Positions 25,889 through 32,157 of a stretch of DNA of 33,094 bases are shown here, one piece after another. The first letter of the stretch is position 1, and each line of letters opens with the position of its first letter. The notes beneath the pieces were generated by a model. It saw only the letters and a list, made by a program, of their open reading frames with translations. It made no database searches and had not been told where the DNA came from. Source of the DNA: Planctomycetota bacterium (lineage in GTDB: Bacteria; Planctomycetota; Phycisphaerae; Phycisphaerales; UBA1924); NCBI GenBank assembly GCA_003696725.1, contig RFGI01000125.1, forward strand, positions 1 to 33,094, given 5' to 3'. Both the position numbers and the translations under genes were made by a program.

Positions 25889-26486
25889 TTCGGAACATGC
25901 CGCCGAGGTCGATCGCTGGGCGAGGATGCTCGACGCGACGGCCTCGACGACCGAGAACCCGCCGCCGCCGACCCTGGCCCCCTGGTTCCTCTTCGCCCGC
26001 GGGGTCGGGCCTAAGCCGGACCGGGTCCCGACCGGCCCGGACGAGGCGCTGTGGCGTCTGGTCGCCGGCGGTCGAGGGGATTGGCGTCAGGCGCTGCCGC
26101 ACCCGGCGCCGGCCGGCGAGGCGCCCCTGCACCCGCACGCCCCGGACACCGCGATCGAGGTCTGGACGGAGCGTGACCTGTCGGCGATCCACGCCGCCAG
26201 CCGGCTGCTGGCGCGGTCGCCCGACGAGGCGCTGCATGCGCGGGTGGAGTCGGCCGTCGCGTGGCACCTGGCCTACACCGAGCCGGACAACGCCACGGGC
26301 CGGCCCTGGGCGGCGCACGTCTTCGCGGCGCGGTCGATCGTCCTGCGCGACGCGGGCGCCCGGCTCTACGCCGAGCACCTCCTGCACGCCTGCCAGGTGC
26401 TCGAGGCCAGGCCCGACGCCCTGAGCGCCGAGATCCTCCGCGACGCGGCCGAGACCCTGCGCGCCGCGTCAGCCGCGCGCGCGTGA
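25875..26486 (+). CDS. Soluble protein of unknown function
   Basis: A 203-residue protein that I do not recognise. There is no signal peptide or membrane helix. It is helical, with tryptophan-rich N-terminal half (DRWARML, APWFLFARGVGPK, ALWRLVAGGRGDWRQ) and a C-terminal part HLAYTEPDNATGRPWAAHVFAARS followed by leucine-rich helices. GTG 25875 is the first start but lies inside the palindrome at 25869-25888 and has no SD; ATG 25926 is the next candidate, also without SD. The coding pattern is clearly real, with third-position GC bias. Its last 18 bases overlap the end of the convergent corA gene. Confidence 0.7.
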   Translation: MFTTLSEHAAEVDRWARMLDATASTTENPPPPTLAPWFLFARGVGPKPDRVPTGPDEALWRLVAGGRGDWRQALPHPAPAGEAPLHPHAPDTAIEVWTERDLSAIHAASRLLARSPDEALHARVESAVAWHLAYTEPDNATGRPWAAHVFAARSIVLRDAGARLYAEHLLHACQVLEARPDALSAEILRDAAETLRAASAARA

Positions 26487-27590
26487 ACCGAGCCAGCCCA
26501 GCCGCCGGGCCACGAGCAGCATCACGGCCGCGATCGCGGCGCACACGCCCCAGAAGAACAGGTACCCGAAACGCCAGGAGAGTTCCGGCATGTTGGCAGG
26601 GCTGGAGGTGTCGAAGTTCATGCCGTACACGCCCGCGACGAACGTGATGGGGATGAAGATCGTGGCCACGACAGTCAGCACGCGCATCACCTCGTTGGTG
26701 CGGTTGGCGACGCTGGAGAGGTACACGTCGATGTAGGACTGGGCCAGCTCGCGGTAGGTCTCGGTGATGTCCACGATCTGGATCACGTGGTCGGCGACGT
26801 CGCGCAGGTAGGGCGCCACCGGCGGCTCGATGAGCGGGTGCCCCTCCCGCATGAGCGACGCGAGCATCTCCCGCTGCGGCCAGATCGACCGGCGCACGGC
26901 CATCAGGTCGCGCTTGGCGGCGAAGATCTCGTGCAGCAGGCTCTGATCGGGGCGTTCGAGCAGCCGCCGCTCGATCTCTTCGAGCCGCTCGCCGTAGGCT
27001 TCCAGGACAGGGAAGTAGCCGTCGGTGATGGCGTCGAGCACCATCACGGCGAGGTACCCGGCGCCGGAGCGACGCAGCCGCGACCCCTCCGTGCGGATTC
27101 GCGCGCGGATGGGGTCCAGACAATCGCCGGCCCGCTCCTGGACGGTGACGACCAGCCCGTCGCTGGCCCAGAGCGAGACCTGCTCGACGTCGGGGGCGCC
27201 GGCGTCGGTCAGCCGGGCCATGCGGGTGACCGCGAACAGGGCGCCGCCGTAGGCCTCGGCCTTGGGGCGCTGCCCGACGTTGGCGATGTCCGCGAGGGCC
27301 AGCGGGTGGACGCCGAAGGCCTCGCCCAGGCGGGTCAGGGCGTCGTGGTCGCTCACGCCGTGGGCGTCGACCCAGACCACGGCGCCGGGCTCGAGGACGC
27401 CAGCGAGGTCCTCGGGCCGGGCGTCGAACGCCTCGCAGCGGTCCGGTCGGTAACGCATCACCCGGAGGGTCATGGGCTCGCGGCTTTCGGCCGGGGCGAA
27501 CGCGCCCGGGGGCGCGCCGACGGGCGCGGCCCGCCGGCGCACCAGCCCGCGGACGTGGAGCCTCGGTCGTCTGGATCGTGACCCGGGCAT
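26469..27590 (-). CDS. corA: CorA-family magnesium/cobalt transporter
   Basis: A 373-residue CorA-family channel for magnesium, and in some members cobalt or nickel. The cytoplasmic funnel domain covers about residues 40-300 (GAVVWVDAHGVSDHDAL, IANVGQRPKAEAYGGALF, SLWASDGLVVTVQER). Two C-terminal membrane helices flank the diagnostic YGMNF motif (VATIFIPITFVAGVYGMNF), as in the family. The start at 27590 includes a basic N-terminus (PGSRSRRPRLHVRG) usual for bacterial relatives, with GGAGG 10 bases upstream; ATG at about 27473 (MTLRVMRYRPD) is the shorter alternative. A 7-bp GC hairpin with GATG loop (27613-27630) lies just upstream of the start. It converges on the unknown gene with an 18-base overlap. 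Confidence 0.95.
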   Translation of the reverse strand: MPGSRSRRPRLHVRGLVRRRAAPVGAPPGAFAPAESREPMTLRVMRYRPDRCEAFDARPEDLAGVLEPGAVVWVDAHGVSDHDALTRLGEAFGVHPLALADIANVGQRPKAEAYGGALFAVTRMARLTDAGAPDVEQVSLWASDGLVVTVQERAGDCLDPIRARIRTEGSRLRRSGAGYLAVMVLDAITDGYFPVLEAYGERLEEIERRLLERPDQSLLHEIFAAKRDLMAVRRSIWPQREMLASLMREGHPLIEPPVAPYLRDVADHVIQIVDITETYRELAQSYIDVYLSSVANRTNEVMRVLTVVATIFIPITFVAGVYGMNFDTSSPANMPELSWRFGYLFFWGVCAAIAAVMLLVARRLGWLGSRARG

Positions 27591-27612
27591 GCGGCGATGG
27601 CCTCCGGCGCCG

Positions 27613-27630
27613 GCCCCCGGATGCGGGGGC
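27613..27630 (-). promoter_or_regulatory. Hairpin in corA leader
   Basis: GCCCCCG-GATG-CGGGGGC on the plus strand, a perfect 7-bp stem with a 4-base loop, 22 bases upstream of ATG 27590. A possible -10 (GATACT on the minus strand, 27639-27644) lies just outside it, so the hairpin would be at the start of the transcript. No M-box riboswitch was recognised. Confidence 0.35.
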
Positions 27631-27701
27631 GCGGCAGAAGTATCGGCCCGGCCGCGCCCCGCGGGCCAACCCGGCCCCGGCGTCGGGCGGCGCGCGGTCG
27701 G

Positions 27702-27707
27702 TAGGAT
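27702..27707 (+). promoter_or_regulatory. -10-like box, near-leaderless start candidate for kinase gene
   Basis: TAGGAT ends 9 bases before GTG 27717 and no SD lies between them. Confidence 0.45.
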
Positions 27708-27716
27708 CGTCGCCCC

Positions 27717-28457
27717 GTGCCCAGACGAACGACCCCACGCCTGACGACCTTCGCCCTGCCCGCCGGCCGGCTGATCGCGGGCAAGTACGTCGTCGAGTCG
27801 CGCCTGGGCTCGGGCTACGAGGGCGAGGTCTACAAGGTGGTCGAGCGCAAGACCGGCGCCCCGCGGGCGGCCAAGCTCTTCTTCCCGCACCGCAACGCCG
27901 GCGACCGCGCCGTGACCACCTACGCCAAGCGCATGGAGCGGCTGCGCCGCTGCCCGATCATCCTCAAGTACCACCACTCCGAGGAGATCGAGGCCCGCGG
28001 CGTGTGGACCACGGTCATGGTCAGCGAGTTCGTCGAGGGTGTGCTGCTCGAGCGGTTCGCGCGGGCCCAGCCGGGGGGCCGGCTGCGGCCCTTCGAGGCG
28101 CTATCGCTGATGCACGAGATCGCCGCCGGGCTCGAGTGCGTCCACCGCATGGGCGAGTACCACGGCGACATGCACGTGGGGAATGTGCTGGTGCGGCGCG
28201 TGGGCGTGCGCTTCGACGTGCGGCTGGTGGACATGTACGACTGGGGCCGGCCCAGCGCGGCGAACATCCGCGAGGACGTCTTCAACCTGGTGCGCATCCT
28301 GTACGACATCACCGGCGGGCCTCGGTGGTACGCGAAGCAGCCGCCGGAGGTCAAGGCGATCTGCCTGGGGCTCAAGCGCACGCTCATCGCGCGGCGGTTC
28401 CCGACGACCCGGGCCCTGCGCGAGCACCTCGAATCCTTCGAGTGGTCCGACGCCTAG
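27717..28457 (+). CDS. Small Hanks-like protein kinase
   Basis: A 246-residue protein-kinase-fold protein without membrane helix. Visible landmarks: glycine-rich loop SRLGSGYEGEVYKV (about 28-41), ATP-binding lysine in RAAKLFF (about 54-60), the catalytic loop EYHGDMHVGNVLV (about 146-158) in place of HRDLKxxN, and LVDMYDWG (about 168-175) in place of DFG. It keeps the catalytic aspartate, the asparagine and a metal aspartate, so it may be active, but the loop form resembles the aminoglycoside/lipopolysaccharide-kinase side of the superfamily more than classic Ser/Thr kinases. The C-terminal lobe is short. It converges on a PP2C phosphatase gene; the two stop codons share the tetranucleotide CTAG at 28454-28457. 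Confidence 0.87.
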   Translation: MPRRTTPRLTTFALPAGRLIAGKYVVESRLGSGYEGEVYKVVERKTGAPRAAKLFFPHRNAGDRAVTTYAKRMERLRRCPIILKYHHSEEIEARGVWTTVMVSEFVEGVLLERFARAQPGGRLRPFEALSLMHEIAAGLECVHRMGEYHGDMHVGNVLVRRVGVRFDVRLVDMYDWGRPSAANIREDVFNLVRILYDITGGPRWYAKQPPEVKAICLGLKRTLIARRFPTTRALREHLESFEWSDA

Positions 28458-29290
28458 CGCGGGCGGGCCGGGCGGTACAGGACGAAGGTGAGGTCGTCGG
28501 GCTTGCCGGGCTCGCCGGGCTGGGGGTTGGTCATGCGCCGGTGCGCCGCGTCGCGAAGCCGGCGGGCGGCGGCGTCGACGGGGCCCGTGCGGATCAGGTC
28601 CGCGATCTCGCGCGTGCGGAGGTTGTCCGTCACGCCGTCGGACGCGAGGATCAGCGTGTCGCGCGCGGCCAGGGGCACGGCCGCCCCGACCTCGATCCGC
28701 ATCTCGGCCGAGCCGAGCAGATTCGAGATCAGCGAGCGGTCCTCGTGGTGCATGGCGTCGCGCGGGTCGATCACGCCCGCCTCGACGCCGTAGGCCACCG
28801 GCGCGTGCGCCAGCGTCTGGAGCTTGACCCGCCCGCGCTGCCCGATCAGCAGGATTTCAGAATCGCCCGCGTGGTAGGCGCGGACGGCGCCGGCGTCGAC
28901 AATGGCCACCGCGAGGGTGGTCCCGGCGCCGACGCCCAGGCCCGTGATGGCCTCGTTGGCCCGCTCGAAGGCGTCGAGCACCGCGCCGCGGGCCTCCCCC
29001 TCGCCGGGCTGGTGGAGGCACTCGAAGAGCGTGCGGATGGCGATCTGGGCCGCCTGTTCGCCGGCGGCGTGCCCGCCGCAGCCGTCCGCCACCGCCAAGG
29101 CCACACCCCCGCCGATCAGGGGGATCACGGCCGCGGCGTCCTCGTTGGGCGGGTCCTTGATCGGGCTCCGCTCGGACACCACCGCCGCGACGCCCGTCCC
29201 GGCGGCGACCACCGCCGGTTCCGACAGGGACCCGTCGAAGACCCCGGTCGCGTCGTTCGGCAACGTGCTGGTTGGTGCGCTCGTCGGCAT
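28454..29290 (-). CDS. PP2C-family protein phosphatase
   Basis: A PPM/PP2C-type metal-dependent Ser/Thr phosphatase. Motifs in order: PPNEDAAAV, ADGCGGHAAGE, GAGTTLAVAIV, AYHAGDSEILLI, ILASDGVTDNL and GKPDDLTFVLY, which together supply the two-metal aspartates. There is no membrane helix, so it is cytoplasmic. The start is uncertain: ATG 29290 gives 278 residues and is preceded by GTG 29293 and, 13 bases away, by a -10-like TACGAT; ATG 29338 would give 294 residues but has no SD and lies upstream of that promoter-like box. It ends tail-to-tail with the kinase gene, and the pair probably controls the same phosphoproteins. Confidence 0.9.
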   Translation of the reverse strand: MPTSAPTSTLPNDATGVFDGSLSEPAVVAAGTGVAAVVSERSPIKDPPNEDAAAVIPLIGGGVALAVADGCGGHAAGEQAAQIAIRTLFECLHQPGEGEARGAVLDAFERANEAITGLGVGAGTTLAVAIVDAGAVRAYHAGDSEILLIGQRGRVKLQTLAHAPVAYGVEAGVIDPRDAMHHEDRSLISNLLGSAEMRIEVGAAVPLAARDTLILASDGVTDNLRTREIADLIRTGPVDAAARRLRDAAHRRMTNPQPGEPGKPDDLTFVLYRPARPR

Positions 29291-29461
29291 CACGCCCTGT
29301 CGGATCGTAGGGTCCTGCTCCCGGCCCGCACTCACCATCGGGCTCAGACCGCCGGCGGATCGACCGATGGGCCCGGGATCGGCGCCTCAAACGGGGCGAA
29401 CAGACCGGCTGCGTCGGCCGCCACGCCAGCGGCCCGTGTCGGTCGGGCCCGGCGAGAGCCG

Positions 29462-30130
29462 ATGGTGAGTGGGATGACCCCGACCCGGGCGCCAAGCCGA
29501 GCCCCCGCCCGCCCGGGCGGCGCCGCCCGAACCCTGGTCGCGGTCGGGGGCGTCCTGGCCACCCTAGGCCTGTCGGCCGTGCTCACGGTTCGCACGATCA
29601 ACGCGACCCTCAGCCGGGCCGAGTCCGCCCGAGCCGAGGCCGCCCGCCTCAGCGCCGACCTCCAGACCCTCCGCGAGCGGTACGAGGCCCTGGCCGACCG
29701 CTACGACGCCGCCGTGAGCCGCACCGCGGTGACGGAGCTCGATGTGAGCGAGGACGGCTCGGTGGCCGTCATCGTCCGCGACGCGGCCGGTCCGCTGCGC
29801 CGGATACAGACGCCGTTCAACGCGGCGGACGAGATCTACGTGGATTATGCCGTGATCGACGGCCGGCTCTGGATCCGCCGCGTCTTCGACGCCCACACCC
29901 CGCCGGGCAGCGCCGTCGTCGTGGATCCCATCGTGGAGACGATCGACTGGGACCAGCGACCGGGCGGGTTCGGCCAAGCCGTCTACCGCAGCCTCGCGCC
30001 CGGCCGATGGGTGGTCACGGTGACCGGCAACGGCTCGCTGGGCCTGGCCCGCGCCGACGAGCCGGTGGACCTCCGCCACCGCCCCATCGTCGAGCCGTTC
30101 GGCGAGGTCGCCGGCGCTGCGGGCCGCTGA
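29462..30130 (+). CDS. Single-pass membrane protein with coiled coil
   Basis: A 222-residue protein that I do not recognise. After a basic, proline-rich N-terminus comes one membrane helix (about 27-46, VAVGGVLATLGLSAVLTV), then a coiled coil (about 50-93, LSRAESARAEAARLSADLQ and LRERYEALADRYDAAV), and a beta-rich C-terminal domain (ELDVSEDGSVAVIVRD, DGRLWIRRVFDAHTPPG, YRSLAPGRWVVTVTGNGSL). ATG 29462 and ATG 29474 are both possible starts; neither has a strong SD. It is divergent from the PP2C gene (about 120-170 bases) and is followed on the same strand by the sulfotransferase fusion gene 41 bases later. The outward domain suggests an envelope role. Confidence 0.75.
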   Translation: MVSGMTPTRAPSRAPARPGGAARTLVAVGGVLATLGLSAVLTVRTINATLSRAESARAEAARLSADLQTLRERYEALADRYDAAVSRTAVTELDVSEDGSVAVIVRDAAGPLRRIQTPFNAADEIYVDYAVIDGRLWIRRVFDAHTPPGSAVVVDPIVETIDWDQRPGGFGQAVYRSLAPGRWVVTVTGNGSLGLARADEPVDLRHRPIVEPFGEVAGAAGR

Positions 30131-30171: not shown

Positions 30172-32157
30172 GTGCTCGATCGGCTCGGCATCTGGACGCT
30201 CGCCCGACAGGGGCCCGTCGTGCGGCTAACGCTGTGGCTGGGGCTGGCGCTCGCGGCCGGGGGCGCGCTGCACGGGGCCCTTCTCCTGGCGGGCGACGGC
30301 CTGTCGCCCAAGTCCGCCCGCACGGCGGTGAATCTGCTGCTCTTCGCGTCGGCGCTGCTGGTCATGAGCCGGAGCGAGCGGCCGGCGTCGGCGTTCGGGC
30401 TGGCGATCGGGGACCGGTGGGCGCCGCACGCGCTGCTCGGCCTGGCGCTGGGCGCCGGCGCCCTCGTGTTCCAAGCCGCCCTCGCCGTGACCGTCGGCGG
30501 GTGGTCGGTCAACCACAACGGCGAGTATCTCGGCGCGATCGGCAAGGCCATGGCGGGCGTCCCGATCGCCGTGCCCGCGGCCGTCGTGTACGCCGGGTTT
30601 GTCGCCGGGTCGCTCCGCGAGCGCCTCGGTCCGGGCGCCGCGTCGGTCCTGGCCGGGCTGGCGGCGTTCATCGTCCACGCGGCGCTGGCCGACCCGTCGG
30701 CGCCGGGCGAGCCGGTGTGGTCCGCCGCGTCGATCGGGCTGGCGATCGCGCTGGCGGCGCGAGCGCGGTTTATCACCGGGGACATCGCGCTGGGCGCCGG
30801 CCTGCTGGCGGGCGTCCTGGTCGTCGAGCGGTTCGTGCGCAAGGCGCCCGTGCTCACGGGGGTGGGCTCGGCGGTTCTCGCCCCCGATCGGGTGCTGCTG
30901 CCGGCGCCGGCGCTGGTCGCGTCGCTCGCCGAGGCGCTGGTCGCGCTGACGGCGCTGGCCCCCGCGGAGCGCGCCGAACCCGGCCGCGCCCGGCTCTCGC
31001 CCGCGTTCCTGCGCGCGTACCCCTTCGCCACCATGGGCGCCCTGGCGCCGATCGACCTGTGGCTGCGCGTCCTGACCCGGGCCCGCTGGCGCGTGGGCGC
31101 CGTGTACATCCCGCGCCTGGTGGTCACGCTCGGTCTCTCGGCGATCAACTCGGCGCTGTCGCTGCCCGAGCGGCTGCTGGCGCCGATCCTGACGCGACGC
31201 CGGCGGATCCCGCCCCCGGTGTTCATCCTCGGCGCGCACCGCTCCGGCACGACGCACCTGCACAACCTGATGTCGCTGGACCCGGCGTTCTGGGCGCCGA
31301 CGGCCTGGCAGGTCATGAACCCGCACGGGTTCCTGGTCTCGGGCTGGATCGTGCGCCCGATCTTTGCGCTGTTTGCGCCCTGGCGCCGGCCGCAGGACGC
31401 TGTGGCGTTCGGCCTGTCCGCCCCCGCGGAGGAGGAGTACGCCGTCGCCAACACGACGGACCTCTCGCCCGACTGGTCGGTGCGCCTGCCGCGCGAGCAT
31501 CACCGCTACGACCGGTTCTGTTTCCCCGACCGGATGACGAAGCGCCAGCGCGACCGGTTCGGTGCGGCGCACCGGGCGTTCCTTCGGCGCGCGACGGTCG
31601 GCGCCCGCGGCCGCACACCCCTGCTCAAGAGCCCGCACAACACGGGCCGGCTGGCGCTGCTCGCCTCGCTGTACCCGGGCGCGCGGTTCGTGCACATCCG
31701 CCGCGACCCTGAGGCCGTCTACCGCTCGAACATCGGCATGCAGGAGACGGCGCACCGGCTGTTCCAGCTCCAAGACCCGCCGACCGGCGGGACCTACGCC
31801 GACCGCTTCCCCGGCCTGTACGCGCAGATGGAGACCCGCTTCTACGCCGACGCCGACGCCCGCGGCTGGGCCGGCGTCGCCGAGGTCCGGTACGAGGACC
31901 TCGCCGCCGACCCCCGCGCCGCCCTGGGCCGCATCTACGACGCCCTCGGCCTGACCTGGACGGAGGCGTTCGACCGCCGGCTCTCGGCGTATCTCGGGCG
32001 CATCGCCGGGTACACGCCCTCGGGGCACGCGCCGCTGGCCGAGGACCACAGGCGGGCCCTCGCTGACGCCCTGGGCCCGTTGCTGGACCGCTTACGCGAC
32101 GCGGACGCCCGCCCCGCGGGGCGGCCCGGCCCGGCGCCCGCCGCCGACCGGTTGTAA
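30172..32157 (+). CDS. Membrane domain fused to a sulfotransferase
   Basis: A 661-residue two-part protein. Residues about 1-270 hold around eight hydrophobic segments (LTLWLGLALAAGGALHGALL, ALLGLALGAGALVFQAAL, and so on), an arrangement like CPBP (CAAX protease-like) membrane domains, but without the EExxxR motif: the matching place reads AGFVAGSLRERLG. Residues about 350-640 are a sulfotransferase of the large Sulfotransfer_3 type: the 5'-phosphosulfate loop FILGAHRSGTTHLHNLM (about 350-366), TPLLKSPHNTGRL, the 3'-phosphate segment FVHIRRDPEAVYRSNIGM, and VRYEDLAADPRAALGRIYD. It would move sulfate from PAPS to an alcohol or amine, probably at the inner membrane, perhaps on a lipid or sugar. 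GTG 30172 has no SD but a -10-like box 6 bases upstream. Confidence 0.87.
   Translation: MLDRLGIWTLARQGPVVRLTLWLGLALAAGGALHGALLLAGDGLSPKSARTAVNLLLFASALLVMSRSERPASAFGLAIGDRWAPHALLGLALGAGALVFQAALAVTVGGWSVNHNGEYLGAIGKAMAGVPIAVPAAVVYAGFVAGSLRERLGPGAASVLAGLAAFIVHAALADPSAPGEPVWSAASIGLAIALAARARFITGDIALGAGLLAGVLVVERFVRKAPVLTGVGSAVLAPDRVLLPAPALVASLAEALVALTALAPAERAEPGRARLSPAFLRAYPFATMGALAPIDLWLRVLTRARWRVGAVYIPRLVVTLGLSAINSALSLPERLLAPILTRRRRIPPPVFILGAHRSGTTHLHNLMSLDPAFWAPTAWQVMNPHGFLVSGWIVRPIFALFAPWRRPQDAVAFGLSAPAEEEYAVANTTDLSPDWSVRLPREHHRYDRFCFPDRMTKRQRDRFGAAHRAFLRRATVGARGRTPLLKSPHNTGRLALLASLYPGARFVHIRRDPEAVYRSNIGMQETAHRLFQLQDPPTGGTYADRFPGLYAQMETRFYADADARGWAGVAEVRYEDLAADPRAALGRIYDALGLTWTEAFDRRLSAYLGRIAGYTPSGHAPLAEDHRRALADALGPLLDRLRDADARPAGRPGPAPAADRL

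Follow-up and report, generated by a model that had tools for sequence, protein, structure and literature searches.

We identified, in the Phycisphaerales, a protein in which a predicted membrane domain – probably a catalytically dead relative of the CPBP (Rce1-like) proteases – is joined in one chain to a PF13469 sulfotransferase. Our preferred reading, to which we assign a probability of roughly 0.5, is that the sulfotransferase is cytosolic and that the dead CPBP domain holds it against an acceptor embedded in the membrane. The encoding gene lies in a stretch of 33,094 nucleotides (the window) from contig RFGI01000125.1 of a Planctomycetota bacterium, where the relevant features are as follows.

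29429..30130, + strand: upstream gene, encoding a TM segment, a coiled coil and a conserved domain; stops 41 bases before the fusion gene.
30172..32157, + strand: fusion gene, CPBP-like membrane domain plus PF13469 sulfotransferase; 661 aa, GTG start, stop at 32157.
30172..30999, + strand: N-terminal membrane domain (residues 1-276), putatively degenerate CPBP-like, with about eight hydrophobic helices; from profile comparison, AlphaFold confidence low.
30577..30594, + strand: AAVVYA (residues 136-141) at the position of the CPBP motif EExxxR; register set by eye around FRG/YAG.
31018..32118, + strand: sulfotransferase domain (residues 283-649), STF9/STF1-like fold; from Pfam and predicted structure.
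31231..31254, + strand: 5'-phosphosulfate-binding loop GAHRSGTT (residues 354-361); from sequence and alignment of relatives.
31702..31728, + strand: 3'-phosphate-binding segment RDPEAVYRS (R511...S519); from sequence and alignment of relatives.

All 661 residues are encoded by a single uninterrupted open frame. Its GTG start at 30172 agrees with the starts of both full-length homologues and is preferred because an in-frame ATG at 30007 sits inside the upstream gene, which ends at 30130. Matches of any kind to the fusion protein were found in 53 of the 101 genomes searched, and two of these besides the window's own encode near-full-length copies: G040 (49% identity over residues 9-648) and G022 (38% identity over residues 44-653). 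The search for the same fusion in other planctomycetes that a first-pass annotation of the window had suggested thus yielded two further genera, and the fusion is present in three Phycisphaerales genera. It is rare – among the family's 163 genomes, a profile search with the N-terminal domain recovered it in 3, with one false match, and the same search of the order (400 genomes) returned the same three fusions and weak false matches. The family and order searches gave four weak matches in total, all rejected as relatives: L065 is a TPR protein, and L182, L183 and L184 were set aside from the look of their long frames, which we take to be dehydrogenase-like plus PurQ-like, threonyl-tRNA-synthetase-like and GspE-like.

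An artefact in which a frameshift, read-through or misassembly joins two genes has almost no chance of explaining these observations. The source genome is a draft (2.46 Mb, 215 contigs, 94% complete), and both homologous contigs come from metagenome-assembled genomes, but the uninterrupted frame, the full-length homologues on unrelated contigs in three genera and a gene order common to two of them refute such an origin. Because three genera, unrelated contigs and a single frame agree, assembly error is excluded and the fusion is genuine. The first-pass annotation had allowed for homologues that would prove to be two separate proteins, with a frameshift here; instead, they too are fused.

The order CorA, kinase, PP2C, hypothetical protein and fusion is common to the window and G040. 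In the window, CorA, a short kinase-like protein and a PP2C phosphatase occupy positions 26469-29338, ordered as in G040. The upstream-gene protein is 55% identical to the same-position neighbour in G040, and a Pfam scan of the gene (29429-30130) returned no family. We considered this gene as a specific partner of the fusion and rejected it, since it occurs in 29 of 61 genomes searched. The G022 fusion gene directly follows a tRNA-Met, and its other neighbours are unlike those in the window.

Evidence for the identity of the enzyme part comes from both sequence and predicted structure. Pfam places residues 349-598 in PF13469 (Sulfotransfer_3) with an E-value of 1.6e-29 and 104.2 bits against a cut-off of 27. 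The complete PAPS-binding set that had been described earlier is borne out: the PAPS-site motifs GAHRSGTTHLHN and HIRRDPEAVYRSN are present in the fusion protein, the window copy carries the P-loop RxGTT and the 3'-phosphate R/S residues, and G354, R357, G359, T360, T361, E420, K486, R511 and S519 show no variation across 56 aligned proteins (53 of 88 non-redundant relatives plus the three fusions, with rows picked for a readable P-loop pattern). Given this constancy, in the P-loop as well as at E420, K486, R511 and S519, the fusion is likely to have sulfotransferase activity. By analogy with tyrosylprotein sulfotransferase, E420 may, we assume, act as the base. An APS kinase was found in all three fusion genomes. 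The window's genome also encodes a second sulfotransferase on one small contig with an APS kinase about 7 kb away (L224, G000:C157; 5571-6740 and 12840-13469); a sulfation locus around this second enzyme was considered and rejected, with none of six scanned frames supporting it.

AlphaFold models residues 290-645 confidently, with pLDDT above 90 over most of the sulfotransferase domain. Structure comparison matched the model to STF9 of Mycobacterium avium (2Z6V; Z 26.6 over 336 residues) and STF1 of Mycobacterium tuberculosis (2ZQ5; Z 24.7 over 315 residues), with the next-best match at Z 15.7 and all other sulfotransferases listed at or below that value. STF9 and STF1 have the same fold as the fusion over residues 294-645 and are its best PDB sequence matches, but their identity to it is 16-18% and their solved chains (365 and 392 residues) are without such a membrane domain. 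The structure prediction that the first-pass annotation had suggested is thus confident for the sulfotransferase and poor for the N-terminal fold (pLDDT about 50 in the full model and 46 for the G022 copy alone), and the full model places the two parts relative to each other with low confidence.

The N-terminal part was earlier described as a multi-helix domain resembling CPBP proteins but lacking EExxxR. Both points hold: the window copy has about eight hydrophobic helices, and in the three copies the place of EExxxR is occupied by AAVVYA, ATITFA and ISGWLY when read by eye. The motif 3 histidine is likewise absent from all three, and a histidine near motif 2 (H169) is kept in the window and G040 copies and absent from that of G022, with both readings made by eye. 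Family models gave little: residues 1-343 of the window copy match nothing in Pfam at E<=1, its N-terminus has no Pfam or NCBIfam match, and that of G040 has no PF02517 match. PF02517 is the best match of the G022 N-terminus, over the motif region, at E 1.5 and 9.6 bits against a cut-off of 22.4. Across the window's genome, the PF02517 model picks out six CPBP genes, the fusion not among them.

The resemblance emerges from profile comparison. Using hhalign, we found that the three-row N-terminal alignment matches 19 CPBP proteins with a score of 35.6 (P 2.5e-4, probability 43%); these proteins are from the same genomes and were limited to L146-L181 frames in which an EE..R pattern could be read, one of 20 candidates (L147, minus strand) having been dropped before alignment as a wrong frame. 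The reversed alignment scores 15.5, and the best of 100 shuffles (within 15-column blocks) and the best of 123 non-CPBP multi-helix membrane frames each score 24.6. When the comparison was made with 21 non-self membrane-protein clusters, the four best were CPBP clusters matching in the motif region, and some more distant CPBP clusters did not rise above the others. Single rows score 23.7 (window), 37.0 (G040) and 19.6 (G022), and the pair of G040 and G022 reaches a probability of 83% (P 9.1e-6). The window row by itself does not stand out, being no better than the best unrelated frame; its copy is assigned to CPBP because of its homology to the G040 copy.

Structural searches with this domain were less informative. 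Foldseek with the G022 N-terminus model gave a best E of 3.3 and nothing significant. Two of its 19 rows are APH-1B of gamma-secretase (E 3.3 and 9.0, from this low-confidence model), whose sister subunit APH-1A is called CPBP-like in the available portion of PMC7387801; at such E-values we gave these rows no weight. The PDB structure list for the full model, in which the N-terminal region is barely probed, shows no CPBP chain.

The domain could instead belong to an undescribed helical membrane family. The missing Pfam and NCBIfam matches, the low-pLDDT model with its lack of significant Foldseek matches, the 43% three-row probability and the unexceptional window row all leave room for this. 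We nevertheless consider it quite improbable, given that the three-row score exceeds all shuffles and unrelated membrane frames, that the four best clusters are all CPBP in the motif region and that the G040 and G022 pair scores as it does. On this profile evidence the N-terminal domain is probably a CPBP pseudoenzyme, and its CPBP ancestry is supported but not proven. It shares with CPBP and Rce1-like proteases (PF02517) a profile similarity over the motif region and about eight helices, but differs in having lost EExxxR and the third-motif histidine, in falling below the family cut-off and in being joined to an enzyme. The CPBP resemblance claimed by the first-pass annotation therefore survives as a profile score above controls and is weak by sequence, no family cut-off being reached; the other known family that it had allowed for did not materialize, with no other family matching.

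Relatives of the enzyme place the fusion among membrane-associated forms. By architecture, 144 relatives comprise 102 free enzymes, 39 with a C-terminal membrane module (defined by about 130 or more extra C-terminal residues with predicted membrane helices) and the three fused as here. In a tree of these 144 rows (quick method, midpoint root; leaving out one frame truncated by its contig and three in which no P-loop pattern could be read), a single branch separates each architecture label from the rest. The three fusions group at support 99 and are sister to the 39 C-terminal forms (support 100), and the 42 membrane-tied forms together split from the free ones at support 99.

The C-terminal-module loci (e.g., L014 and L060) are commoner than the fusion and nearly all from Phycisphaerales. 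Their enzymes are like that of the fusion, at 33-42% identity in the enzyme part, and a hydrophobic stretch before the P-loop is common to both forms, but their membrane module is at the C-terminus and about 130 aa long. The module (L060:2596-3051, alignment A4) contains W, G and R residues that never vary and often ends in RPPG; it matches no named Pfam family, with no family found in more than three of the 30 members scanned among the 39. At E 1e-30 the enzyme is present in 61 of the 163 genomes of the family, in one copy each except in the window's genome, where the second copy is distant and free. The architecture was read in 35 of those 61 genomes (3 fused, 32 C-terminal), and genomes appear to carry either the fused or the C-terminal form, not both.

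Judging from these architectures, the family has two kinds of membrane tie, a result that reinforces the tie first suggested for the window's enzyme. That two different ties exist is our strongest reason to think that proximity to the membrane is under selection. It is also the best case for the N-terminal domain being a membrane anchor only, one that binds no substrate and whose CPBP likeness reflects ancestry without function: the sister clade is tied by an unrelated-looking module at the other end, free relatives have none, and the N-terminus of the other two copies is less conserved relative to the window (38% and 29% identity) than the sulfotransferase part (58% and 44%). Against this, one helix suffices for an anchor and eight are present, and the basic residues R149, R151, R199, R220, R223 and K224 are invariant across the three genera, albeit in three rows only. 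We regard a mere anchor as possible but doubtful, and continue to favour a dead CPBP domain that would hold the enzyme against its acceptor.

Hints to the nature of that acceptor come from the neighbours of relatives. Of the 20 C-terminal-module loci examined, 12 (L226, L227, L228, L231, L234, L235, L236, L239, L241, L242, L243 and L244) have a radical SAM gene of the MqnE/CofH family, often in divergent orientation, no more than 7 kb away; the MqnE-like match is above the CofH-family cut-off and below the MqnE equivalog cut-off. DnaK is near 10 of the same 20 loci, so simple conserved gene order is a possible explanation of these neighbours.

A contig scan of the genome collection found no relative with the fusion protein as single query and listed 80 loci with the protein alignment (A1) as query. 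Among the 80 listed, HMG-CoA reductase is close to 12, and 15 carry one or more genes of a prenyl-lipid-like cluster. Free relatives there adjoin HMG-CoA reductase, a UbiA prenyltransferase, a PEP-synthase-like protein and DUF3419 (PF11899) (L114:1-9047, L087, L093, L097, L108, L111, L112, L118, L121, L125, L127, L129, L137, L138 and L139). Their hosts are mostly Rhodobacteraceae and allies, with Verrucomicrobiota and one member of the Planctomycetales. No HMG-CoA reductase lies within the stretch examined at L108, L125 (a weak, distant match) or L137. From its gene content, the cluster resembles a pathway to a prenyl lipid that includes a sulfation step.

At the three fusion loci themselves, none of these isoprenoid genes (MqnE-like, HMG-CoA reductase, UbiA) turned up next to the fusion in our tests, nor did a partner gene or a chemistry for it emerge. 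The mqnE-like genes of the fusion genomes are on other contigs, and HMG-CoA reductase was found in none of eight genomes searched, the three fusion genomes included; we rejected an HMG-CoA-reductase linkage for the fusion genomes on this count. To our knowledge, no membrane fusion of the sulfomenaquinone synthase Stf3 has been described. Stf3 is comparable to the fusion, by description rather than by sequence, as a bacterial sulfotransferase acting on a membrane isoprenoid: the accessible text of PMC7404182 has it sulfating menaquinone in M. tuberculosis. Because MqnE-like and HMG-CoA reductase genes neighbour relatives and because Stf3 provides an analogy, an isoprenoid acceptor for the fusion enzyme is reasonable.

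An envelope glycan or lipid-linked sugar might be the substrate instead, with the domain holding an undecaprenyl-linked intermediate. Many sulfotransferases act on sugars. The CPBP pseudoenzyme SpdC, moreover, acts with a peptidoglycan hydrolase in the portion of PMC10581084 available. Sugar sulfotransferases, however, reach only Z 14-15 or so against the model, compared with 25-27 for STF9 and STF1, and the flanking frames scanned (5 in the window, 10 in L066 and 9 in L067) include no glycosyltransferase or polymerase. We consider a glycan substrate unlikely, and the neighbours of relatives hint, indirectly, at isoprenoid lipids rather than glycans.

We propose that a PAPS-dependent sulfotransferase of the STF9/STF1 type works at the cytosolic face of the membrane, anchored by the covalently joined and catalytically dead CPBP domain. 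PAPS is made in the cytosol. The cytosolic placement of the sulfotransferase domain is supported but not proven, on the grounds of eight hydrophobic segments, a basic N-terminus and a basic C-terminal linker. The CPBP domain would hold a membrane-embedded acceptor at the PAPS site, where the sulfotransferase would then modify it; this acceptor may be a lipid of the membrane, with an isoprenoid (a hydroxylated quinone, for instance, or a polyprenol) as one candidate. The interpretation offered by the first-pass annotation, in which the membrane part may bring enzyme and substrate together and the product may be a sulfated envelope lipid or glycan, is supported in part, by the fusion, the CPBP-like domain lacking its glutamates, the complete PAPS site and the membrane tie.

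A presenting role is suggested because dead CPBP relatives, SpdC and LnsB, act as helpers. As far as the available text goes, SpdC (LyrA) of Staphylococcus aureus is a CPBP relative without key catalytic residues (PMC10581084, PMC7387801) that scaffolds and orients SagB, a peptidoglycan hydrolase, at the membrane (PMC10581084). Lipoprotein acylation depends on LnsB as well as LnsA, and comparison with APH-1 has led to the proposal that LnsB serves as a non-catalytic chaperone; the same partial text gives many CPBP proteins poorly defined roles (PMC7387801). The fusion would resemble SpdC and SagB in that a dead CPBP relative orients a second enzyme at the membrane, but SpdC and SagB are separate proteins with a hydrolase as partner, whereas the fusion is one chain with a sulfotransferase.

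In the open-access literature, we found no paper on a CPBP or CAAX protease joined to a sulfotransferase or on fused transmembrane sulfotransferases, and nothing relevant on planctomycete sulfolipid sulfotransferases or on an HMG-CoA reductase, UbiA and sulfotransferase linkage. The parts are of known kinds; their combination is not found in print there. At its fullest and most speculative, a version we think unlikely to hold as a whole, the finding would mean that a CAAX-protease domain, now dead, serves anew as an isoprenoid-binding module and presents a prenyl lipid (either hydroxylated menaquinone or polyprenol) to the sulfotransferase fused to it, and that Phycisphaerales make a sulfated isoprenoid membrane lipid with a single enzyme family whose two ties to the membrane are independent. 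The dead CPBP proteins in the available portions of PMC7387801 and PMC10581084 act with separate partners, whereas a covalent fusion names the partner. The fusion thus makes the idea that the CPBP fold presents membrane substrates directly testable, and it gives reason to look for sulfated membrane lipids in planctomycetes.
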